Shown here in pieces: positions 4,040 through 49,435 of a stretch of DNA of 64,000 nucleotides. This stretch comes from Rugosibacter sp. Its GTDB lineage: Bacteria; Pseudomonadota; Gammaproteobacteria; Burkholderiales; Rhodocyclaceae. Position 1 is the first letter of the stretch, and each line of letters begins with the position of its first letter. Position numbers and translations under genes: made by a program. Under the pieces are notes generated by a model, which saw only the letters and a program-made list of their open reading frames with translations, made no database searches and had not been told where the DNA came from. The stretch lies in NCBI GenBank assembly GCA_004322535.1, contig SCUZ01000056.1, forward strand, positions 33,284-97,283, in the 5' to 3' direction.

Positions 4040-5278
4040 TCAAGAGCGGTAATCAGCATTGATTTTGACATAGTCATACGACAGATCACAGGTCCACACG
4101 GTAGCATTAGCTGCGCCGCGTCCCAAATCAACGTGTACCGTGATTTCAGCAGCCTGCATAATGCGCGCGCCATCTTCTTCGCGATAACTCTCAGCGCGTC
4201 CACCCTGGGCAGAAACCAGTATCTGCTCCCCGCCGCTGCCCAGCCAAACACGCACCCCCGACACCTCCAGATCATCGATGCCCGCATAACCAATCGCAGC
4301 AAGAATACGACCTAGATTGGGGTCTGAGGCAAAAAATGCCGTTTTAACCAGCGGCGAATGCGCAATGGCATAGCCCACTTGACGACATTCCGCAGACGTT
4401 TTACCGCCGCTTACCGCTACCGTAATGAATTTTGTCGCCCCTTCACCGTCGCGCACAATGGCTTGCGCCAACTCTTGTGCGACGCCAATCACCGCCTCAC
4501 GCACTGCGGGCCAATGCGGCGAGTGTTCATTTTCGATCAATAAACCACTCGCACCCGTGGCAATCAAAATGAAAGAATCATTGGTTGATGTGTCGCCATC
4601 CACGGTGATGCAATTGAATGAAGTGTCGGCCGCTTCTTTTGCGAGCTGCTGCAACAGGACGGGTGCCACGCCTGCATCTGTCGCTACAAATCCCAGCATC
4701 GTCGCCATATTCGGCCGTATCATGCCGGCACCTTTGGACATGCCGGTCACCGTCACTGAAAAGTCGGCGCTGGTGATACGGCGCGAAGCCGCTTTGGCCA
4801 CCGTATCCGTCGTCATGATGGCATGCGCGGCAGCATGCCAATTATTTTCTGATAAATCAGCATGCGCTGCGGGTAATCGCGCGACGAGACGATCTGTCGG
4901 TAAATGCTCCAGAATCACTCCCGTAGAAAACGGTAACACATCACCCGGAGCACACCCTAATGCTTGCGCCACCGCAGCACAGGTGTCATTTGCTGCGGCC
5001 AAGCCCTGCTCGCCCGTGCCCGCATTGGCAATACCCGTATTGATGACCAACGCGCGCATACTCGCTGTGTGTGCCAAGTGTTCGCGACACACGATCACTG
5101 GCGCGGCACAAAAACGATTCTGTGTAAAAACACCCGCCACATGGCTGCCTGGCGTTAAAGCAATCAAGGTCAGATCACGCCGATTTTTCTTGCGAATTTC
5201 GGCTTGCGCTGTGCCCAGCCTAACACCCGCCACAGGCAACAAAGCCGCAGCATCGGGGGTTGTGTAATTAACTGGCAT
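4040..5278 (-). CDS. argJ: bifunctional glutamate N-acetyltransferase/amino-acid acetyltransferase ArgJ
   Basis: [24 protein letters not shown] and [11 protein letters not shown] motifs; start at [22 protein letters not shown]. Confidence 0.95.
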
Positions 5279-28775: not shown

Positions 28776-28818
28776 CTAATACTTCGTCAATAAATTGCAG
28801 GTAGTGTCCTAATTTGAA

Positions 28819-29050
28819 TTAGACAGCGCGCGCCTTACATTTCTTGCAAAGGAATGTCGGCTGAGGATCATTTGCTGGCCCTTCTGGATTTCCCAAAATA
28901 AAGCCCGATGGTATTTCAACTACCCGAGTGTTGAATTTTCCATCATGGTGAGGTGGAGTTTCATTTTCTTCTAACTCGACTACCCCAGTTCGTGGCCGTT
29001 CGGGCAAGTTAATTTCTTTGTGAATATTTCGCGCTTCGCCATAAAACCTC
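28819..29050 (-). pseudogene. Small zinc-ribbon-like protein, apparently frameshifted
   Basis: Frame 1 MAKREIFTKKLTCPNGHELG*, then a shift to GVVELEENETPPHHDGKFNTRVVEIPSGF..FLCKKCKARAV; two Cys pairs lie in different frames. Confidence 0.5.
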
Positions 29051-29061
29051 CACCTAAATTC

Positions 29062-30036
29062 TCAGGCCAAGTCATCGTCCTCATCTGAAAGCACTGACTT
29101 CTGCGCCTCAAGCAACTTAATCAGCTTGCCAATTTCCTTCGGCCCAATATCGCCAGCAATAATCAGGCGATAGTTGGTTTCTTTTGATAAGGGACCACGA
29201 AGCCACTCACGTTCTTGCTTGTCCAAGCCGATCGTTGGCATCTCGACCAACGGAAGAATGGGTGGAGCTTTACTATGGCTAGCAGGCACCCATTTTTCAA
29301 TAACGCTCACTTCATTCATCGGAATTCCAGTTTGGTTACCTTCTATGAATATCCAAGACTCTCCATCGTGCTCCTGAATTTGGCGAACACGAGTTGGAGT
29401 TGCTAGCTGGAGCACCCCGTTGGATTCCCATTGAATAAGGTCACCGATTTCGACTTTAGTCTTAGTATCGGCTGGAGTCTCCTGTTTGCGCTCATCAGTA
29501 GGAGACATACTATCAGATTCTTGTAATTTTGCAAACGAAACAGTGTTCCGTATTTCTCGAATAAAATCGCTCACTACGTTTTCATTGAACTTCCGATCAA
29601 GCACTAGGTAATGCCGCAAATTGGCATCGGAAGGAAGCGTCGGCCATTTCGTCAGAATTTCTTGGTGAATTTTTGGCAATAGCGCCGCGCGCTTTATGGC
29701 CTCATCGCGCTCTTTTGAATCTTGGCGTTCGTCTAGGATGATTCGCAGTGCCAGATCGGTTAGTTTCACCTTCCTCTGGTCACCAGACCCCTCATCTTCC
29801 ATAAGCCCGAAGGCAAGAAGGGCCGCAATAGCCTGCTTACCCCCACTACTAGCATAAGAGTAACCCCAATGTTCTGCCGCAACCTTAACGTTAGCGGCGG
29901 CTCGTTTCTCAGCACCATAAAACTGCCTGGCCCGTTCGATCGCCGACTTTAGGTCAATAGATGGATACGCGGGGCTCCGATGAACCGCCCCGCGTTTGCC
30001 TTTACCGTCGTTGCTTTGAGTATCTTGCTCAGCCAT
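29062..30036 (-). CDS. Uncharacterised 324-aa protein with putative N-terminal wHTH
   Basis: Long ORF with good start; KVAAEHWGYSYASSGGKQAIAALLAFGLMEDEGSGDQRKVKLTDLALRIILDE reads as a wHTH; function unknown. Confidence 0.8.
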   Translation of the reverse strand: MAEQDTQSNDGKGKRGAVHRSPAYPSIDLKSAIERARQFYGAEKRAAANVKVAAEHWGYSYASSGGKQAIAALLAFGLMEDEGSGDQRKVKLTDLALRIILDERQDSKERDEAIKRAALLPKIHQEILTKWPTLPSDANLRHYLVLDRKFNENVVSDFIREIRNTVSFAKLQESDSMSPTDERKQETPADTKTKVEIGDLIQWESNGVLQLATPTRVRQIQEHDGESWIFIEGNQTGIPMNEVSVIEKWVPASHSKAPPILPLVEMPTIGLDKQEREWLRGPLSKETNYRLIIAGDIGPKEIGKLIKLLEAQKSVLSDEDDDLA

Positions 30037-30154
30037 GACAACTCCTTAGATGGGGATGCTGTAGTCATACTAAGATATGTCTCAGATAAAGTCAAGCGCT
30101 AAAGAGACCCAATAGAGACATTGCCATCAAATTTAATCTCCAATATGCGCTAAC

Positions 30155-30187
30155 AAGTCTTGACAAAGACTTTGTCCCCATTATAAT
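30155..30187 (+). promoter_or_regulatory. Consensus sigma70 promoter overlapped by an inverted repeat (operator-like)
   Basis: TTGACA (30160-30165), 16-bp spacer, TATAAT (30182-30187); AAGTCTT/AAGACTT inverted repeat 30155-30172 covers the -35. Confidence 0.75.
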
Positions 30188-30210
30188 TGGCGGCAAGGAG
30201 GTGGTTATCG

Positions 30211-30588
30211 ATGAGAAGAGAGTTTGCCCCCATGAGCCATGCCTGCCGACGTGGGGGCGGAAAAGAAAAGGCCTGCATTGGCGTCCTTCCTAGGGGCATG
30301 ACCAATGCAGGCCGTGGTGGGCGCTGCTGTACCGCTTTTGCCCCCGTAGCTCAGTTGGAAGAGCGCAGGTTTCGTAGCCCGGAGGTCGCCAGTTCGAATC
30401 TGGCCGGGGGAGCTTTCTATTTCAGTAGGACTACCGAGTGCGTCAACACCCGGAAGCCCGCAACCGACACCCGTATGAGGGGTAACGATTGCACCGGTAA
30501 AGACAATCGAATCATAGCCTTCATACGGGCCTTTGTAAAGGAGCCCGCTGTGAATACGTTGAGTCAGATAAGCAAATTCAAGTGTTGA
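30211..30588 (+). other. ORF running through hairpins and tRNA-like; has a strong SD but coding status doubtful
   Basis: AAGGAGG at 30195-30201, 9 nt from ATG 30211; contains PVAQLEERRFRSPEVASSNLAGG, the typical conceptual translation of a tRNA. Confidence 0.35.
30340..30413 (+). tRNA. tRNA-like sequence (CGT at anticodon position, Thr-like), degenerate anticodon stem, no CCA
   Basis: Acceptor CCCCCG/CGGGGG, D-arm GCTC-AGTTGGAA-GAGC, T-arm GCCAG-TTCGAAT-CTGGC; anticodon arm CAGGT-TTCGTAG-CCCGG pairs at only 3 of 5 positions; G1:A72 mismatch. Confidence 0.6.
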
Positions 30589-31047
30589 ACTGCTTGGTGG
30601 AAGGCGTTTCCATTCGTTCGATTGAGCGCATGACAGGAATCCACCGCGACACCATTATTCGGCTGATGCTCCGGGCCGCTTCAATTTTCTGCCCGTGTAA
30701 TGGATGAGAAGTTCCAAAACCTTCACTGTGAGGAAGTCGAAGTTGACGAATTGTGGGGATTTGTTGCCAAAAAGCAAAAGCACGTCAGCAGTACCGATGA
30801 TGCCCGCGAGGTCGGCGATCAGTACATCTTCGTTGCCCTCGATGCCAATACAAAGCTAGTGCCGACCTTCCTAGTAGGTAAGCGTAGCGCTGAAAATGCC
30901 GTGGAGCTGATGCGTGACTTACAGTACCGCGTGGCGAATCGTCCTACGATTACGACTGACGGCTTTCGGCCATACATTGAAGCCGAAAAAGAAGTGCTAG
31001 AAATGTTCAAAGCTACTTTTCCGGTTGCGGTCAAGAAAAGTCCTTAA
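30569..31047 (+). pseudogene. IS1-family transposase, frameshifted and C-terminally truncated
   Basis: VLNCLVEGVSIRSIERMTGIHRDTIIRLMLRAA in one frame, then VDELWGFVAKKQKHV..FVALDANTKLVPTFLVGKRS..TITTDGFRPYIEAE; two catalytic Asp present, third acidic residue absent; stop TAA lies in the TIR. Confidence 0.85.
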
Positions 31048-31075
31048 TTCAAATTAGGACACTACCAAATTGCAC

Positions 31076-31127: not shown

Positions 31128-31406
31128 ATGATTAAAAACTTCACTCACAAGGGGCTTGAACGGTTCTTCAAGAAGGGCGATCACCGAGGCATCATTGCCA
31201 GGAGTGAGGCTCGAATCGAACGTATTCTGGATCGGCTGAATGCAGTCGTGAAACCTGAAGACATGAACATTCCCGGCTACAAGTTCCATGGCCTGGGCGG
31301 TAACCGTAAAGGCACCTATGCTGTGACAGTAACCGGAAACTGGCGTATTACTTTTGAATTCGATGGCGAAGACGCCATCAATGTGGACATGGAGGATTAT
31401 CACTGA
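31128..31406 (+). CDS. higB: HigB/RelE-type toxin
   Basis: MIKNFTHKGLERFFKKGDHRGI..NIPGYKFHGLGGNRKGTYAVTVTGNWRITFEFD; followed directly by HigA. Confidence 0.9.
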   Translation: MIKNFTHKGLERFFKKGDHRGIIARSEARIERILDRLNAVVKPEDMNIPGYKFHGLGGNRKGTYAVTVTGNWRITFEFDGEDAINVDMEDYH

Positions 31407-31723
31407 TGAAGAGCCTGCGAGACCCGAATCGCCGCCCGACGCACCCTGGTGCAATTCTGCGCGAGGATGTGTTACCTGCCCTTGCAATGACACAAACAGA
31501 GCTTGCTGACCGGCTGAATATCTCCCGCCTGTCGGTGTCACAGCTTCTGCATGAAAAACGCAGCATGACGCCCGAGATGGCCGCGCGCGTCGGCAAGTTT
31601 CTCAACACGACGCCCGAGAGCTGGCTGCGGATGCAAGAGGCCGTCGATTTGTGGGAAGTACAACAGCACCCGGAAAAGCTGGCCGGGATCAAGCCAATCA
31701 AGGCGGAGCTTATCGCCGCATAG
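31406..31723 (+). CDS. higA: HigA-type HTH antitoxin
   Basis: RRPTHPGAILREDVLPALAMTQTELADRLNISRLSVSQLLHEKRSMTPEMAARVGKFL. Confidence 0.93.
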   Translation: MKSLRDPNRRPTHPGAILREDVLPALAMTQTELADRLNISRLSVSQLLHEKRSMTPEMAARVGKFLNTTPESWLRMQEAVDLWEVQQHPEKLAGIKPIKAELIAA

Positions 31724-38748: not shown

Positions 38749-41700
38749 CTAGGGCTGTAATTTCTGCGCCGCCTTCGATTCAGTCACGGCGGCCTTGAGC
38801 AGGGCATTACGTTCCATGGTCAATTGATCCAGCTTCTGGCGCTTCTCGGTCGGGTTCAGTGCGTCATTGCGCTTGACTGCCTGCATCTCGTTGTTGATCG
38901 AACCGAGGTTCTTCGCAGCCCTTTCCAGGGGCTTCGCTTCTCCGGCCAGCGGTGACTGTTCCTTGCTGTCTGCAAATTCACGCAAGCCAAGATCATCCAG
39001 CTCGCGGAGAGTTCCACGCAGACGCTTGGATTCTTGCAGCAGGCTGTAGAACTCGGTTTCGTACTTGGTATGCTTGGGTGGCTCATTGGCATAAAATCGG
39101 CGCACCACGGGCAATTCATCGGTGCGCTTTTCTGGCAGCTTATTGCCAAACAAGGCTTGGTCAGTCAGCATCAATCCATACATGGCATAGGTGTTGAAAT
39201 AGCCGCGTAGCAAGGCTTCGGCACGAGATGGATTGACTTGTAGCGCCTCGGGTAGGTCACGGGTAGCCATGCCCACCGCCTTCATGGTCTCGCTAGTGCC
39301 CGGCTTCGATCTGAGGAAGGGCTGTACGTTCTCCATGCCCGGTGTTTCAATCGGCGCCTTGGTGAAGCTGTTGCGGTTCATCGCCTGCTCGGCCAATGGG
39401 GCGAGTATCTGCGGCATGAGGTTCACATTGAACGTCGCGCCCAGGATGCGCGCGAAGTCCTTGCCCAGGCCAGTCGGATCGGCGGCCATGATCTTCTCGA
39501 CTGAACGCTCAGCACCAGAGGCCAGCGCGCCAATTTCCCATATCTTCGGGTAGCGGAAGTGATTCTCACCGACAAAGAAATGCCAATTCGCGTCACGATC
39601 CCAATCCGGCAGGTCGGCATAGCGCGGATCGTTTTGGTTGAGCAGGTACAGCCCGGCGCTCAGCAGGGCGATGGTGCCCGCCTTGGCCGCAATCGCCCCT
39701 TTGTTCGGATCGTGGGCGAGGCCGCGATACAAGCGATCCCATGACACCAGCGCAGGCTTGAGGAACATAACAGTGTCATACATAAAGCCCAGCGCCTTGG
39801 AGTCTCCCCGCATGGCAAAGTCCGTGCTCACCTCGCGCCCCTGATAGGCCGCATGCCGGGGGTTTTCGCCACGCTCGATGGCTTTCTTGTACTCACCCAG
39901 TCGGGTGCTCATCTCGAAGGCGTCACCCAGCGTTTCGACAAAGTGCAGCATCTTGGACGGCGCATCCAGCACGGTGCGGTAATCGATACCCTGGCGACCG
40001 TAGAATTTTTCCAATTTGGTGCGCAGGGCTGCTTCGTCCAGATAAATTGAACTCAGGCCACCACCGTTGGCGATGTAGTCCTTGTAAATCGGATCGTTCG
40101 TCATCCGTAGTCGCATGCCTTGCAGACTGTCGATAATCGGCTTGAAGCCTGAACGCGACATGACGGAACCCATGAGGGTATCTCTGGCGATATTAGCCAT
40201 CCAGAAGTCCGGCGTCATGGTTATCGTCGCCTGACCGATGCGCTTGGGCAGTCCGAGCCAGCGCACGACCTCGGATTGCACCGGCCGATCAATAGCAGAA
40301 AGTGCGCGATAAAGAATTGGATCGCCCACTTCAAACCAGACTGGCTTGCCCTGCTGTAATACCGCCACCACGTTCTTGCCCGCCGGTGGCTGACCTTTGA
40401 TGAGGAAGTCGAAGAACGCGGGCGCATCACCGTCAAGGGCAATGCCGTAGCGCTTGAGCATGGCATCCAGTACCTGATCACCGCTGATTTTCACCGGGCG
40501 CGAATCGGTATCAATCTTGACCATGAACTTGCCGCCGCCTTCGCGCTGCGACAGCTTGGCAATCTTCAGCCGCGCCTCGTTCTTGACTGACTTGTCGAGC
40601 AGCATTGCCGCATTGCCGACCATGTTGCCGAGCACGTCCTTGATGTTGGTCGTTCCACCCGTCAGCGCCTGGATTCCCTGCCATTCACCGGGCTTGCCCT
40701 TGAGGCCGCCGGGCTGCTCCACACGATGGAAGGGCAGATATTGCGTGCGCTGCCACAAGCGCCGTGATTCCGGGTTGATAACATTCTGCGCTTCGGCAAA
40801 ATCGAGGATGCCCCGGTTCCATGTCTGGTAATCCTGGAATGCCTTTTCCCGCTCAGGGGTTCTCAGCCGGAGCATGGCGTCAATTTCGCCGCTGGTGAAC
40901 AGATGCTCTCTGCCTTGGCCATGCAGCTCACGGGAAGAGCGGCCAACGAAGTACAGCAACGCATCGTCAAGGCTTTTCGCCACCGGCTTGAGGATCTCTT
41001 CCAGCCCCTGGCCTTTCCATGAAAACGAGCCGTCGCGGTTCTTGACTGGGTAGCCGAAACGCACCGCGCCATCCGCAATCGAAGCCGAGGCACGTGAGAG
41101 CCGGGCAGACTCATAGGGGCCGTTCGGGTTGATCTTACCGGTAAGCGAACGCTCCATCTGCATGATGCCATGCAGGTCATCCACGGTACTTTGGCGGAAC
41201 TTGTCCCAGAAGCGGTCGAAGTATTCCGCGAGTGGCTTGTCAGTGCCGATCTTCGAGCGCGCCCTATTTAATGAGTCCTGGCCAAACCATCCGGTCATTT
41301 GTTTCTGCGCCTTGCGCAGTGCCGGACCGTATTGGTGTTTATCTGCAAAATCATTCAGCCATGAATAAACCCTTGGCGCACGTGCTTCGAGCGTTTCCGG
41401 TTGCGTAAGGAAGAGCCTGACGCCTTCGGCAAATCCTTCCGGTACGGACTGCTGATCGTAGCTCACCGACTTCAATTCTTCACGCAGGGCTTTATCACTT
41501 CGCCAAGCGCTGGAGATTTCCTTTACCCGATGATCAATCAGGTGCGCAATCTCATGCGCGGCCACTTCGATGTCTGAGGCATTCTTAATGCGCACTTCAT
41601 TCACCCCTGGGCGAAAGAAACCGAGCCGCTTCTTGCCTTTGACTCGACCTTCGTAAATGGTCGTGTCCATCGCTTTGGCTAGATCGCTGACAATCTGCTC

Positions 41701-43680
41701 GCGGCGGATCGGTTTGGGCAGGTCGGCAACCGTCGCGGCTTTGGCTACCGGCTCACGCATCTGATCAACCATCGGCGCATAGTTCGCGCCTGGAGCCCAT
41801 GAATTCTGCACGGGGGCTGCCATGTCTTGCGCTGCGGCGCGCGGCTCATCCGGTATGCGTACTAGCACCGGCTTTTTCATTTGGTTAATGGTTGCTGGAT
41901 CAAGGCCGAGGCTGTTCGCAGCCTCGCGCAAGTGGGCGCGGTAATCGGCTGCCTTCTGACCATCGGCTTGATACACCCGCTTGATCGCTTCCGCGCGTTT
42001 GTGCCCAGCCTCGACAGTGCCATCACGTCGGACGATGGGCGCGCCCTCGGCATCGTCAAGCGCCACAGCGAGCTTGCCCGGAGTGAACTCGCGGTTGATG
42101 TCCTGCACGATCATTTCCTGCTGATGTCGATCCGGCGCATCACTGTAGCTGCGCGGTTTTACGTTGTCGGCTTCGATAAGTCCCCACTTCGCTTGCCGTG
42201 GCGGCGGAAAAACTTCGGCGTTAATGCCATCTCTACCGGCCAGCCGCTCTTGATCCTGTACCAAAGGACGGGTGCCGGAATACCGATCCGCCTCGCCCAC
42301 TCTGGAAGTGGTAGCGTCTGCCCGTTGTGCGTCAGCCATTTCGACGCCCGATACAGTTTCGCGGCGGGTGGGTTCTCCAGCGGCAATCCGTTCTTCGCCC
42401 GGCGCAGCACGGAATTCGCTACTGGTTGCCCTGGCAATCTCGCGGCTTGCGATATGGTCATTGCTTGGCCATCGATTACTACTATCCGGCAACATGTCCG
42501 CCGCCGCACTTGGGGAGGTTGCGTTGTCCACAGGCAGTTCCCCGGCGCGTAATTGCCGTTCACGTCCCAACGCCCCAGCCAATGCCGCTGCGTCGAGGCT
42601 GGCCCCATGTCCTTGAGGAACTGCTGAAAGCTCTGCATCCACGCCGGGCACACGGTTATCCCCTTCCCGCCGTAGTATTTCCAGTCCCGCCGACCCGCTT
42701 CTGTGCAGCGCCGGATCATCGCCCGCCAGGCGTTGCGCTCGCGTTGAAATGGCTGCATCGCTTACCCCTTCGAGCGGGATGAACCCACTGGGCGCATTGC
42801 CTTCACTACCGCCTTGATGGCTCGCTGAAGCTTCGGGTTGGCGGGCGGCTTCTGCTGCGGCAGGGGCTTCATGGGGGGCTTTTGTGGTTTGCTCATTTGG
42901 CGTATTCCTGGTTGAAAACTTTTCGTGGGCGGCCTTCGCACCATTGGCGCCGGGGGCAATCAACATGGGCAAGGCGTTGATGGTGGTGTCGACCGCAGTA
43001 GCCAGTGTCGGGCTATTGGTGGCCTCAAGCGTCTTGTCGCCAGCCGCTGCGCCTGCTTTGGCGAGCATCTCGAACGGGTACAGCGTGGCGTTGGTCAGGT
43101 GCTGGCCAAGCTCGGTCTTGGGTTGGTAGGTCAGCGCATTGCCCACGGCATGCACTACATCCGCCGGGTCGGCATCGGTGATTCCAAGGGCTTTGGATGC
43201 AGCCGCACCAAGGCCAGCAATACCCGCTATTGGGAGTGCTGCACCCATGGTGGCCAAATTGGCTGCCGTCTCTGCCACCGGATAGCCGGATGCTACGGCC
43301 TGCACGGTTTTTGCTGCCGATACAACATAAGGTTCAGTGGCCATTGCGATGCGCTGCATGGTGGATGGCGCATCTGTTTCGCTTGATTCGAGCGGAATAA
43401 AGCCGGTTTGACTGGAACTATCCCCCGTTCCATTGGGTGTGCTGGCCTCTTCATCCAGCGGCACAAAGCCGCGCCTTGCGGCAGGCGGCTCCTTGTTAAA
43501 GCGTTGCCGGTATTCGGTGTTTAGCGCTGCCTGAACCTCGGGGGGTTCAAGCGCTGAATCCGTAATTTCATTGGACACAATCTGTTCAGCCTCGGCGTCC
43601 CGGGCTGCCTGCTCGGCAGTGCTGATGCGCGGGAAGTCGTCAGGGCGGCGATTATTTGTAGAGAGCGGAATGATTGGCAT
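38749..43680 (-). CDS. Large polyvalent phage-type protein (ParB-like region, Zn-peptidase-like HExxH, large C-terminal region)
   Basis: 1643 aa; NREFTPGKLAVALDDAEGAPIVRRDGTVEAGHKRAEAIKRVY; EVAAHEIAHLIDH; GFxPL(D/E) motifs in N-terminus. Confidence 0.8.
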   Translation of the reverse strand: MPIIPLSTNNRRPDDFPRISTAEQAARDAEAEQIVSNEITDSALEPPEVQAALNTEYRQRFNKEPPAARRGFVPLDEEASTPNGTGDSSSQTGFIPLESSETDAPSTMQRIAMATEPYVVSAAKTVQAVASGYPVAETAANLATMGAALPIAGIAGLGAAASKALGITDADPADVVHAVGNALTYQPKTELGQHLTNATLYPFEMLAKAGAAAGDKTLEATNSPTLATAVDTTINALPMLIAPGANGAKAAHEKFSTRNTPNEQTTKAPHEAPAAAEAARQPEASASHQGGSEGNAPSGFIPLEGVSDAAISTRAQRLAGDDPALHRSGSAGLEILRREGDNRVPGVDAELSAVPQGHGASLDAAALAGALGRERQLRAGELPVDNATSPSAAADMLPDSSNRWPSNDHIASREIARATSSEFRAAPGEERIAAGEPTRRETVSGVEMADAQRADATTSRVGEADRYSGTRPLVQDQERLAGRDGINAEVFPPPRQAKWGLIEADNVKPRSYSDAPDRHQQEMIVQDINREFTPGKLAVALDDAEGAPIVRRDGTVEAGHKRAEAIKRVYQADGQKAADYRAHLREAANSLGLDPATINQMKKPVLVRIPDEPRAAAQDMAAPVQNSWAPGANYAPMVDQMREPVAKAATVADLPKPIRREQIVSDLAKAMDTTIYEGRVKGKKRLGFFRPGVNEVRIKNASDIEVAAHEIAHLIDHRVKEISSAWRSDKALREELKSVSYDQQSVPEGFAEGVRLFLTQPETLEARAPRVYSWLNDFADKHQYGPALRKAQKQMTGWFGQDSLNRARSKIGTDKPLAEYFDRFWDKFRQSTVDDLHGIMQMERSLTGKINPNGPYESARLSRASASIADGAVRFGYPVKNRDGSFSWKGQGLEEILKPVAKSLDDALLYFVGRSSRELHGQGREHLFTSGEIDAMLRLRTPEREKAFQDYQTWNRGILDFAEAQNVINPESRRLWQRTQYLPFHRVEQPGGLKGKPGEWQGIQALTGGTTNIKDVLGNMVGNAAMLLDKSVKNEARLKIAKLSQREGGGKFMVKIDTDSRPVKISGDQVLDAMLKRYGIALDGDAPAFFDFLIKGQPPAGKNVVAVLQQGKPVWFEVGDPILYRALSAIDRPVQSEVVRWLGLPKRIGQATITMTPDFWMANIARDTLMGSVMSRSGFKPIIDSLQGMRLRMTNDPIYKDYIANGGGLSSIYLDEAALRTKLEKFYGRQGIDYRTVLDAPSKMLHFVETLGDAFEMSTRLGEYKKAIERGENPRHAAYQGREVSTDFAMRGDSKALGFMYDTVMFLKPALVSWDRLYRGLAHDPNKGAIAAKAGTIALLSAGLYLLNQNDPRYADLPDWDRDANWHFFVGENHFRYPKIWEIGALASGAERSVEKIMAADPTGLGKDFARILGATFNVNLMPQILAPLAEQAMNRNSFTKAPIETPGMENVQPFLRSKPGTSETMKAVGMATRDLPEALQVNPSRAEALLRGYFNTYAMYGLMLTDQALFGNKLPEKRTDELPVVRRFYANEPPKHTKYETEFYSLLQESKRLRGTLRELDDLGLREFADSKEQSPLAGEAKPLERAAKNLGSINNEMQAVKRNDALNPTEKRQKLDQLTMERNALLKAAVTESKAAQKLQP
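42159..42758 (-). CDS. HNH-like phage protein in an alternate frame inside the polyvalent ORF
   Basis: AWRAMIRRCTEAGRRDWKYYGGKGITVCPAWMQSFQQFLKDMGPASTQRHWLGRWDVNGNYAPGNCLWTT matches the YYGGRGI..W..F..F..DMG..DR.DN.GNY.PGNCRW pattern; SD-like AAGGGG upstream of ATG 42758. Confidence 0.75.
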   Translation of the reverse strand: MQPFQRERNAWRAMIRRCTEAGRRDWKYYGGKGITVCPAWMQSFQQFLKDMGPASTQRHWLGRWDVNGNYAPGNCLWTTQPPQVRRRTCCRIVVIDGQAMTISQAARLPGQPVANSVLRRAKNGLPLENPPAAKLYRASKWLTHNGQTLPLPEWARRIGIPAPVLWYRIKSGWPVEMALTPKFFRRHGKRSGDLSKPTT

Positions 43681-43682
43681 GA

Positions 43683-45143
43683 TTATCTGTAGTGCCCAGT
43701 TACGCGGCCGTTTTTGTCAAGAACCTCAACACCCTTTGGGGTGTCTTTGCCCAGCTTGAAATTCAGCATGGATTTATCTGATCGGAAACGGTTGGCCACG
43801 TCAGCACGGTCTAATCCTGCGGCAGGTTCCGTGGGCTTATCCCCACGACGATCAAAAACTTCATCATCCCCGACCTTTCGCCGACCTGCCAGTGCGACTT
43901 GGCGCGCGAGACCTGGGTCATAATCCGGGTTTTCTCTGCCAGTGTTGGTCGCTTTTGCTGTCCTGCGCATGATGTCCTGTTGCGTCATGCCACTAACTGC
44001 ATCGCGGGCGGCGTCAATCTCAAAATTGCTTCTTTGCTGGGTAGCGGTTAATCCACCACGGGCGTCGAGTTGGCGGGTCAGGCGCGCATCACGTCGGTCT
44101 TCGCGCGTTTGGTCTCGTTCGGACCTGAGGCCTTCGAGTTGAATTGATCGATCCAGCGTTGCCGCCTCCGAGTCACGTTTGGCTTTTTGCTCTGCGATGA
44201 ATTTCACGGCCTGCACCGGATTGAGCGCAAGTGCCGACTGCTCGGCCAAATCTGACACCTTTCCGGTTTTTGAACCAACGACCTTGCCTGAGGCGTCGAC
44301 TTGATCAATCTGGAGCTGGTCGCCACCGAGGTATTTCAGGTTAACCTTGTAACCATCAGGGAATCCGTCGCGGTTGTAAAGATTTTCAAAGTTTTTTAGC
44401 GCGCCTTGATGGTCGCCTACAGAAAAGCGGCGCACGCCCGCCATATATTCTTTGGCGTAGCTCACGCCTTCGTTTGAATCGAGGAAGTCGGTGAGCTGTT
44501 TTGCTTCCGCCACCTTGCCCTGCCTGAGCAATGCCTGCACCTCCTTGGGTGCAATATCCTTGAGGTAAAAATCCAGCGGATCGCGGAGCTGATTTGCACC
44601 ACCGGCTGCGACCGATGCGGGCGTAGGTGCGTTGGTGATAGCCCTGATTTCGTCTTGATCGGCAAGATCGCGGCGCTTGGACGCATTGCTCAGGGTTCTG
44701 AGCGCGTCATCGGGGCGTCCGGCGCGCTCATAAATTTGAGCCACCTCACTTGCTTTTGCAGAGTCAACCTCTTGCTTTGAAAATGGCTGATTTTCTCTTT
44801 GCTGAAAAGAGGAGCCCACGCCCATTGAATTCACGACACTTGCGGGTGATTGCCGACGGGCAGTTAAAGCCTCTATCGTGGGCTTGAAGTCAGCCTGTAT
44901 TTGGGTGCGCTGCACATCGTCCGTAGCACCTGCCAGCCGTTGATCCATTGCCTGCTGTGCTGCTTTGAGTGCATCCTCACCAGAGGCGGCTTGCGTTTCG
45001 GTGGGCGCTACCTGGCTAGATACGTTGGCTAGATCACCTTTGATCCGGGCGTCTTCAATATCAGCGGAAATTTTTCTGCTGGTGGTGTAAGTACCATTGA
45101 ACCCATCCAGAAAATCTTGAATACCATTTCGCTTGCGTCCCAT
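43683..45143 (-). CDS. Phage-type hypothetical protein, Gln/Ala-rich, likely structural
   Basis: MGRKRNGIQDFLDGFNGTYTTSRKISADIEDARIKGD; adjacent to the polyvalent gene. Confidence 0.6.
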   Translation of the reverse strand: MGRKRNGIQDFLDGFNGTYTTSRKISADIEDARIKGDLANVSSQVAPTETQAASGEDALKAAQQAMDQRLAGATDDVQRTQIQADFKPTIEALTARRQSPASVVNSMGVGSSFQQRENQPFSKQEVDSAKASEVAQIYERAGRPDDALRTLSNASKRRDLADQDEIRAITNAPTPASVAAGGANQLRDPLDFYLKDIAPKEVQALLRQGKVAEAKQLTDFLDSNEGVSYAKEYMAGVRRFSVGDHQGALKNFENLYNRDGFPDGYKVNLKYLGGDQLQIDQVDASGKVVGSKTGKVSDLAEQSALALNPVQAVKFIAEQKAKRDSEAATLDRSIQLEGLRSERDQTREDRRDARLTRQLDARGGLTATQQRSNFEIDAARDAVSGMTQQDIMRRTAKATNTGRENPDYDPGLARQVALAGRRKVGDDEVFDRRGDKPTEPAAGLDRADVANRFRSDKSMLNFKLGKDTPKGVEVLDKNGRVTGHYR

Positions 45144-45200
45144 GTTTTTCTCCCGGTAATATTGAGAGCGTGCCACGCATGGCGCGAGGCATCAGCAACA

Positions 45201-45542
45201 TCAAGGCGAAATGTTGCTGATACGGTAGTACTGTTGCGAAAACGACCGTTGCTTGATTTCTCGCGTCCCGAATTTGCCAACGTCAGGGCGGTAGCTAATA
45301 ATCCCACTGGAATAATCGAGCACCACATCATGCGCGCCGGTGGCTGCAATGGCCTGCATGTGCCGCCACGCGTCAGCAGCGGTGGCTTTGGGATGTCTGG
45401 ATTTGTACGCTTGCGCAAGCTGGTAAAACGCATTCTTCTGCCTTGTAATCCGCTTGGTTGAGCGGTTTCGTTTTGTAATGCCTTTTTTAAGGCTGCTGAC
45501 GGGTTTTTTATTGGTGGGAGTGGGTAGATATTCGGTGGTCAT
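45201..45542 (-). CDS. Hypothetical protein
   Basis: 113-aa ORF in minus-strand gene array. Confidence 0.5.
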   Translation of the reverse strand: MTTEYLPTPTNKKPVSSLKKGITKRNRSTKRITRQKNAFYQLAQAYKSRHPKATAADAWRHMQAIAATGAHDVVLDYSSGIISYRPDVGKFGTREIKQRSFSQQYYRISNISP

Positions 45543-45560
45543 TGTTTTCGTCTCCGGCGT

Positions 45561-45899
45561 TTAATTAAGTAGCTTGCCTGTTCTGTTTCTATCCGCCTGT
45601 CCTTCGACTTCAACAACAGTAACAAGCTCTGCTTTGACTGTCGCGAGCATTTGATGCAGCTTGTCTGCACATTTACAGACCTCTTGCGCCAGCGCATACG
45701 CACGCTCAGCGGTCTCGCTCGACGGGTTGGCGTTGAAATCGGTTTCAAGCGTTTTCTGAAAAAGAACATGCGCAAATAATTGGTTGGCCGTGTGAGCTAA
45801 GGCGTCGGCGTTGCTTGCGGCATAACCGAGGTAGTCTGTTGCAACCTCAGCCAGCATGACAGCGGTGGTTGCGTGAACTTCTGCGAGGGTGTTACTCAT
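45561..45899 (-). CDS. Hypothetical protein
   Basis: 112-aa ORF overlapping the upstream ORF. Confidence 0.5.
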   Translation of the reverse strand: MSNTLAEVHATTAVMLAEVATDYLGYAASNADALAHTANQLFAHVLFQKTLETDFNANPSSETAERAYALAQEVCKCADKLHQMLATVKAELVTVVEVEGQADRNRTGKLLN

Positions 45900-46242
45900 G
45901 GTTTTCTCCTGGAACTGATTTATAACGAAGGTAAGACGGATGTCTTGCAGATCGGATTGAACGCACCATGCCGCGCTCTTGCAAATAGCGCATGCCCCAG
46001 GACACTGCGCCGCGTGACCTGCCAGTAATCTGCATTAGCTCCCAATGCTCTAGCCAGCGCGGGTGTGCTGCTTTGAGTGCTTGCAGAACTTTTTCTGTAG
46101 CTGATCCCGTGCGGATGCCTTTCGGGAATGGATTGGGTGGCCACGGTGGGCGTTCGACATCGGCTTTGGCCGTAGCAGCTGAAGCAGAAATACTCATCAT
46201 TTGTTCGAGTATGCTGGGCAGCTTTGGTGGTGATGCGTTCAT
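45892..46242 (-). CDS. Putative wHTH DNA-binding protein
   Basis: EKVLQALKAAHPRWLEHWELMQITGRSRGAVSWGMRYLQERGMVRSI; ATGA overlap with dnaB. Confidence 0.65.
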   Translation of the reverse strand: MNASPPKLPSILEQMMSISASAATAKADVERPPWPPNPFPKGIRTGSATEKVLQALKAAHPRWLEHWELMQITGRSRGAVSWGMRYLQERGMVRSIRSARHPSYLRYKSVPGENHE

Positions 46243-47594
46243 CCCGGAAACCCAGTCGCCTTTGGCTTGAATGAATTGCGCGGGCTAGGCCCTTGCCATG
46301 ACGAAAATGTCATCAATCTGCCGTCATAGCGCAGGTTGATTTCACCTACTGGGCCGTTTCGGTTTTTTCGTAGGAGCAGCTCGGTAAACTTTTTCCAGTC
46401 TTGGGATTCTGAATAAAGTTCCTCCCGGTGGAGCATGGCGACAATATCCGCGTCCTGCTCGATTTCGCCGGAATCCCGCAGGTCGCTCATCATCGGGCGC
46501 TTGTCGTTACGGCCCTCTACACCACGGTTAAGCTGCGCCAGTACGATAATCGGTACGTTCAATTCTTTCGCCAGCGCCTTAAGGTCACGCGACAGGCTCC
46601 CGATCTGTTGCGTTCGGTTGTCCCCGTACCCAGTCATGAGGCCGAGATAGTCAATCACGATCAGATCAAGTCCTGACTTGCGCTTCGTCCTTTTGGCGCA
46701 CGCACGGACATAGCTGACGGTGATCGCTGGCTTATCATCCACCCATAGCTTGTTGCTGGCGATATTCGGCACAGCATCGGACATGTGTTCCCATTCCGCC
46801 ACGTCCTTCGTGCCTGAGCGCATCGCGTGCATGGAAACAGAAGAACGCGCAGACAATACCCGCATTCCAATTTCACGCTTGGTCATTTCCAGCGTGAAGA
46901 ACAGCACTGACTTGCCCCGGCTGGCGACGTTATCCGCCACGTTGCAGGCAAAAAGCGTCTTACCAACCGAAGGCCGTGCGGCAACAATAACCAACTGCCC
47001 ACCCTCTAATCCGCCAGTCAGGTGATCGAATTCCGCAAAGCCAGTCCGCAAGCCGGATGTTTCATCGCGGGCATCGATGTAGGACAGCACGTCATTCACT
47101 ACGTCACCAATGAGGGCTGGCTCATCGCCCTGCTGGTCAATTTCCGCCGCAAGCTTTAGCTCAATCTCGGCCACGATGTCCGTTGATGTTTTTAATCCAG
47201 GCTTGAAGCATTGGGTTTGCAGGTCATTGCCCACACCAACCAAGCGGCGCAAAGTGGCCTTTTCGCGGATAATTTCGGCATGGCGCCTGATGTTAGCGAT
47301 ACTGACTGTGCTGTTGGCCACCTCGGCCAGATATGTCAACCCACCCGTCTGATCGACTTCGTTGGACCGTTCAATCGACTCGAACACAGTTACCACATCG
47401 GGCAGCTTTCCGGCGTTGGACAGCAGGGTGATATGCCGGAAAATCCGTCGGTGGTCGTCGCGGTAAAAATCGGTTTCGCGCACTACGTCCGCAACCCTGT
47501 CCCACGCGCGGCCATCCAGCAGCAGGCCGCCGATCAGGGATTGTTCCGCCTCGACGGAATGCGGCGGGAGTTTGATTTCGGCGCTGGCGTTCAT
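46239..47594 (-). CDS. Replicative DNA helicase DnaB-type
   Basis: HSVEAEQSLIGGLLLD; LVIVAARPSVGKTLFACNVA; DLIVIDYLGLMTG. Confidence 0.95.
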   Translation of the reverse strand: MNASAEIKLPPHSVEAEQSLIGGLLLDGRAWDRVADVVRETDFYRDDHRRIFRHITLLSNAGKLPDVVTVFESIERSNEVDQTGGLTYLAEVANSTVSIANIRRHAEIIREKATLRRLVGVGNDLQTQCFKPGLKTSTDIVAEIELKLAAEIDQQGDEPALIGDVVNDVLSYIDARDETSGLRTGFAEFDHLTGGLEGGQLVIVAARPSVGKTLFACNVADNVASRGKSVLFFTLEMTKREIGMRVLSARSSVSMHAMRSGTKDVAEWEHMSDAVPNIASNKLWVDDKPAITVSYVRACAKRTKRKSGLDLIVIDYLGLMTGYGDNRTQQIGSLSRDLKALAKELNVPIIVLAQLNRGVEGRNDKRPMMSDLRDSGEIEQDADIVAMLHREELYSESQDWKKFTELLLRKNRNGPVGEINLRYDGRLMTFSSWQGPSPRNSFKPKATGFPG

Positions 47595-48382
47595 GCGGCC
47601 TCCCGGTGGTACTTGTTTTCGAGGCACTTTGCAAAACCCGCTGGTGACATCAAGAAGTCAATGTCGGCAAGAAATGGCGGCTTACCAGGTTGTGGATTTG
47701 CTCTTCCCGTTAGGAAGGAGGATTCTGCACAGGTGGCGAAAAATGCTTTCCATGATTTGAGACCATCATCAACGGTTTGGTAGCCAAAGGGTTTGCATGT
47801 CAACTTCGCTGCCTCGTTCCAGCGGGCTTTGATAGCACCCCGCCGTGCTGTGTTAAGAATTTTGCACACTGGGTTGTCTGGCATCAACCCATGGTAAGCG
47901 TCAATGATTTTATTTACTGGACACAGCAGCAGGTCGGCGCTAGCCGACGTAGCAGTTGAAAGGTTAAGGGAATCAGGAATCAGGTTAAGGGAATCAGCCC
48001 GAGCGCTTCCGATTTTCTCGGAACGTGTACCGATTATTTCGGTAGTGCTTCCGATTTGCTCGGGGGCGGGTATCTCTGATTCGGTTTCGTTCTTGTGCGG
48101 GTTCTGATGTTTTCTGAAATTCAGCACTTGAATGTAACGCTTGTCGGCGACCGCATAACGCTGAATGAATTCTTCCGCCTGAAGCCAATCAAGCAAAGGA
48201 TCCATGTCGACGTCGCGGTAGGGGAACGTTTCAGCCTTGATCCGCAGGGGACGGTCTTCAAGTCGGCCTTCTCTGTCCGCCAGCACCCACAAACCTTGGA
48301 AGGCCAGCGTGTATAACGGATCGGCAACACCGAGAAGTTCATTTTTGAACAAGCCAGGCTTTATGTTACGTGAGCGCGCCAT
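47591..48382 (-). CDS. Phage replication initiator-like protein
   Basis: MARSRNIKPGLFKNELLGVADPLYTLAFQGLWVLADREGRLEDRPLRIKAETFPY; ATGA-coupled to dnaB. Confidence 0.7.
   Translation of the reverse strand: MARSRNIKPGLFKNELLGVADPLYTLAFQGLWVLADREGRLEDRPLRIKAETFPYRDVDMDPLLDWLQAEEFIQRYAVADKRYIQVLNFRKHQNPHKNETESEIPAPEQIGSTTEIIGTRSEKIGSARADSLNLIPDSLNLSTATSASADLLLCPVNKIIDAYHGLMPDNPVCKILNTARRGAIKARWNEAAKLTCKPFGYQTVDDGLKSWKAFFATCAESSFLTGRANPQPGKPPFLADIDFLMSPAGFAKCLENKYHREAA

Positions 48383-49344: not shown

Positions 49345-49435
<91 letters not shown>

Follow-up and report, generated by a model that had tools for sequence, protein, structure and literature searches.

We conclude that positions 30160–30413 of the window (the whole 64,000-nucleotide stretch of Rugosibacter DNA that was analysed) probably specify one example of a structured RNA that recurs independently on transposons and recruits the tRNA processing machinery, a reading to which we assign a probability of roughly 0.6. 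The first-pass annotation had proposed an undescribed structured passenger RNA, possibly controlled by a divergently encoded 324-aa protein. The first half of that proposal is supported, since the composite recurs with compensatory changes in independent transposons, which is also why we favor a structured passenger RNA over a tRNA captured once; control by the 324-aa protein is not supported. It is comparison among elements that establishes where the RNA lies in its element, that the order of its parts recurs and that its stems pair. The open literature that we searched nowhere describes a tRNA-like RNA as part of an IS1-family transposon.

The window transposon and its RNA locus

The locus had been called transposon-borne, and the element can now be delimited. 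A complete IS1-family transposon spans 28800–31066, with 22-bp inverted repeats at 28800–28821 (forward strand, GGTAGTGTCCTAATTTGAATTA, the same ends being found in other elements) and 31045–31066 (reverse strand), and with a perfect 8-bp target-site duplication, AAATTGCA, on its left (28792–28799) and right (31067–31074); the left end came to light when the IS end beyond the transposase was used as a query. The terminal repeats and the duplicated target site are those of the IS1 family, as is the transposase by way of a relative: the window copy (30551–31047, forward strand) is a frameshifted, truncated pseudogene in two pieces, which gives a weak match to NF033558 below the cut-off and is 53% identical to the intact transposase of the related locus L079, which passes the Pfam IS1 cut-off. 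Also decayed is a small ORF on the reverse strand (28819–29042), zinc-ribbon-like by eye, whose ATG (29042) and CxxC tail a single frameshift has put in different frames, as two overlapping ORFs. The window copy of the RNA may be losing its function along with its decaying element. Directly to the right of the transposon there is a HigB-like toxin and HTH antitoxin pair (31128–31723), and at 38749–48382 a probable prophage segment (1643-aa protein and DnaB-like helicase, by eye), which a tRNA-Ser(CGA) at 49346–49435 adjoins.

The 324-aa protein, encoded on the reverse strand at 29062–30036, is not supported as a controller of the RNA: it has no family match in Pfam, NCBIfam or PHROGs, no ARAGORN tRNA lies near its few relatives, and the relatives of the RNA adjoin other cargo. 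It may be a recurrent transposon passenger; its best relative (38% identity), in L053, lies next to a transposase ORF that is IS1595-like by eye. At L053 1357–3411 this homologue overlaps the IS1595-like ORF on the opposite strand.

The promoter, the inverted repeat at its −35, the Shine-Dalgarno sequence with its ATG, the stems and the tRNA-like domain that had been noted were all confirmed in place. The promoter-like TTGACA-16-TATAAT occupies 30160–30187 of the forward strand (TTGACA at 30160–30165, TATAAT at 30182–30187, 16-bp spacer), and its −35 is overlapped by an AAGTCTT/AAGACTT inverted repeat (30155–30172, with arms at 30155–30161 and 30166–30172) that is predicted to be operator-like. 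The Shine-Dalgarno AAGGAGG (30195–30201) precedes an ATG at 30211–30213, where a 125-codon ORF (30211–30588) opens with ATG AGA AGA; it reads through the hairpins and the tRNA-like domain and gave neither a protein family in Pfam, NCBIfam or PHROGs nor a tblastn homolog. There follow, all on the forward strand, hairpin P1 (GCCCCCA/TGGGGGC, 30226–30258), hairpin P2 with a perfect 12-bp stem, GGCCTGCATTGG/CCAATGCAGGCC (30270–30313), the tRNA-like domain (30340–30413) and a further stem, CCCGTATGAGGGGTA/TAGCCTTCATACGGG, enclosing CGATTG/CAATCG (30470–30529). The strong evidence that this locus exceeds chance is comparative and does not come from folding energy: the whole 222-nt fold is no more stable than dinucleotide shuffles (z −0.94), and the leader minus the tRNA-like part reaches z −3.35 against mononucleotide shuffles only.

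Judged as a tRNA, the domain scores 46.1 bits (E 1.2e-6) against the Rfam tRNA model (RF00005), above the gathering threshold of 29, and ARAGORN identifies it as tRNA-Thr(CGT). The arms, the poor anticodon stem and the missing CCA had been described before; to these we add that acceptor pair 1-72 is a G-A mismatch, that two anticodon-stem pairs are unpaired and that GCT stands where CCA would be expected. A tRNA would have both its anticodon stem and its 1-72 pair intact, and the window copy has neither.

Recurrence of the RNA in related transposons

Related elements were found by their transposase or their transposon ends, and not by the RNA: a transposase-alignment scan gave 29 loci, and in IMG/VR the end sequence was matched at 43, several of which are full elements with 8-bp duplications. 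In at least nine related elements a tRNA-like domain precedes the transposase on its own strand, at distances of 57–644 nt; it lies directly upstream in L079, L133, L125, L141, L150, L151, L154, L160, L164 and L175, the last being the bacterial-chromosome case. The L079 element, for instance, is 3972 bp long with an 8-bp duplication, shares a contig with L115, carries an N6/N4 DNA methylase and a second gene without a Pfam match as cargo, and has its domain, with an encoded CCA, 307 nt before the transposase. At least half of the related transposons (e.g., L103, L104, L112, L134, L147) lack the domain.

Of 26 distinct viral loci found only via the transposase, five have a same-strand domain no more than 700 nt upstream of it, against about 0.19 expected by chance; there were six hits in 17.7 kb of upstream sequence versus five in 472 kb elsewhere in these loci, and the domain scan of shuffled sequence, at a higher threshold, gave zero. 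L160 and L164 add two more domains, with variant T loops. The domains at L160 4640–4706 and L085 2192–2264 both have ATCAT(T/G)C as their T loop, an unusual sequence in place of TTCRANN.

The first-pass annotation would have been contradicted by homologous copies that lacked the stems or compensatory changes. No such result was obtained among the RNA-carrying relatives, whose compensatory changes lie in the acceptor and T stems, though many related transposons lack the RNA altogether. Joined acceptor and T stems are 98.8% paired across 14 domains, with two-sided changes in 10 of the 12 pairs, and their covariation is 0.927 (0.217 when shuffled, at most 0.26 when slid), although part of this 14-domain figure reflects selection, because most domains were picked by a scan that requires pairing. 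The domains of L160, L164, L175 and L085 were instead recognized by eye or with ARAGORN. The full cloverleaf covariation of five type-2 domains, the window included, is 0.443 (0.204 shuffled, at most 0.17 slid), and in these same five the acceptor and T arms are 94–100% paired and the anticodon stem 80%, values that the same scan would inflate.

Six minimal domains (L079, L141, L151, L154, L160, L093) have no canonical anticodon arm (by eye), and G3-U70 together with A73 is present in all six, the neighboring pairs differing. G3-U70 and A73 are the alanine identity used by tmRNA. In the window copy both G3-U70 and a GGGG start are missing.

The leader is shared more narrowly. Its motif, AT(G/T)AG(A/G)AG(A/G)G..TTT, was found in exactly four of the examined loci (the window at 30211, L141, L164 and L175), each time 76–133 nt before a domain and upstream of the transposase. 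Two hairpins follow it in the window, L141 and L164, and one long hairpin in L175. The window P1 (GCCCCC/GGGGGC) is identical to that of L164, whereas L141 has GCCTC/GAGGC in its place, and P2 has equivalents that differ in their letters in all three. The motif is not a common one, because a motif-only IMG/VR scan returned a single true relative among 20 viral hits, the already known L164 contig; leader DNA, motif or protein used as queries gave chance or tRNA hits. The leader ORFs are rich in Arg, and rare codons for it stand just after the start or before the stop (window 30211–30225; L141 4745; L164 4637; L175 ~1201–1233; L151 ~4530), examples being ATG AGA AGA, ATG ATT AGG AGG GTT TGA and GTG AGG ATA CGC TGA, and it is possible that these codons are a ribosome-stalling signal.

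Several observations concern transposons with the same ends more broadly. Short non-autonomous elements of 650–790 bp with these ends and perfect 8-bp duplications (L097 4664–5452; L101 2397–3169; L117 1467–2120; L127 5176–5965) carry gene fragments, and one is nested in another (L117); a scan inside L097, L101, L117, L127 and L119 found no tRNA-like domain. On a viral contig, an indole-glycerol-phosphate-synthase-like gene (by eye; L104 ~1330–2150) is the apparent cargo of a same-ended element. Small proteins that by eye are coiled-coil and winged-helix-like adjoin domains at L133 5364–5795, L200 3026–3526 and L159 ~4500–4990, and two of these searched against Pfam had no match.

Alternative readings of the tRNA-like domain

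Could the domain simply be a host or phage tRNA gene that the transposon captured and that is now decaying, with hairpins and ORF incidental? The ARAGORN call, the broken anticodon stem, the missing CCA, the degenerate transposase and zinc-ribbon ORF and the varied cargo of same-ended transposons would all suit such an origin. However, no near-identical source tRNA turned up in the organism's own and 100 related genomes (the best match is 80% over ~65 nt), the anticodon arm varies but the acceptor and T arms are retained, and leader motif, hairpins (in L175 a single one) and domain recur together in L141, L164 and L175. A lone decayed tRNA is disfavored because it leaves the shared leader unexplained, and we consider this reading unlikely. 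Given how much the domains differ, some of them could nevertheless be separate tRNA captures.

We consider it similarly unlikely that the RNA is a cis-acting leader limiting the transposase, in which ribosome stalling on the Arg-rich start codons and tRNA-like processing would control read-through. In its favor, the domain lies on the transposase strand, 57–644 nt before the gene, short Arg-rich ORFs with a strong Shine-Dalgarno sequence occur in several elements, and the window ORF extends into the transposase start. A simple transposase leader is made less likely by three arrangements: an opposite-strand RHH-like small ORF intervenes between domain and transposase in L079, L125, L126 and L133 (by eye); L126, whose cloverleaf-like fold (z −7.0) has no T loop, has a T-run terminator directly after it; and L093 has a methylase-like ORF (by eye) and two tRNA-like domains and no transposase.

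That the transposon carries a working tRNA which supplements host or phage decoding is very improbable, because close relatives have different anticodons (CGT in the window, GCT in L175, aca in L164), and although the cloverleaf of L175 is good and its CCA is encoded, and phage contigs of the same set carry ordinary tRNAs, the "tRNA-Ser" of L175 is without the long variable arm that serine tRNAs have, a canonical anticodon arm is missing (by eye) from the six minimal domains, the window copy has its 1-72 mismatch and the host genome (L002) has another tRNA-Thr(CGT).

Likeness to known RNAs and a possible role

tRNA-like domains are known from the ends of some plant viral RNAs, from tmRNA and from MALAT1. 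The closest likeness of the minimal relatives is to tmRNA (RF00023): L079, L141, L151, L154, L160 and L093 start with GGGG and have G3-U70, A73 and a T arm, a canonical anticodon arm being absent, and a ribosome-binding site, ORF and hairpins are associated with the transposon domains. Against the Rfam tmRNA model L079 has an E of 1e-5 and 20.4 of the 47 bits of the threshold, and is thus below it, and the window gives no hit. Unlike in tmRNA, the transposon domain forms one uninterrupted stretch 3′ of the ORF, and no tag peptide or pseudoknots were identified. With tRNA itself (RF00005) the window copy shares a score above the family threshold, D and T arms and consensus loop bases; it differs in the defects of anticodon stem, 1-72 pair and CCA, in the unrelated anticodons of its relatives and in being joined, as in its close relatives, to a hairpin leader.

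C4, the P4 CI antisense immunity RNA (RF01695), likewise belongs to mobile elements and has a leader ORF that runs through it, and C4 RNA is matured by RNase P. An immunity RNA of the Ash/Icd/C4-P4 type was tried and rejected: the C4 model, which scores 74.9 bits on P4 itself, has no match in the window at E≤10, the leader ORF matches nothing, and the Ash domain has no match over the cut-off in 101 genomes. In MALAT1/mascRNA a tRNA-like element also lies 3′ of a structured RNA, with RNase P cleavage proposed, whereas the window RNA is bacterial and transposon-borne and its cleavage is predicted. IS1-family insertion sequences with passenger genes share with our elements related DDE transposases, inverted ends and 8-bp duplications; a recurrent tRNA-like RNA component sets ours apart, and none was found described for a DDE transposon in the literature searched.

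How might such an RNA work? As we picture the structured passenger RNA, the unit consists of its own promoter, a short reading frame behind a strong ribosome-binding site, between one and three hairpins and the tRNA-like domain, and would be transcribed on its own. The tRNA machinery would then recognize the tRNA-like domain, most simply through RNase P, whose cut on the 5′ side of the domain would leave the hairpin leader and the tRNA-like part as two stable RNAs; relatives whose domain has G3-U70 and A73 may also have it charged with alanine. The RNA would act in trans or protect the element's own expression. We would go further only tentatively, to a class of mobile non-coding RNA on IS1-family transposons of bacteria and phages, built of leader, hairpins and tRNA-like domain, with one alanine-identity branch that might be a tmRNA analogue and benefit the element by engaging AlaRS, EF-Tu or ribosomes. 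The relatives with alanine identity make a direct test of charging and RNase P cleavage possible. If our reading is true, this transposon family carries an RNA that addresses the tRNA or translation machinery.
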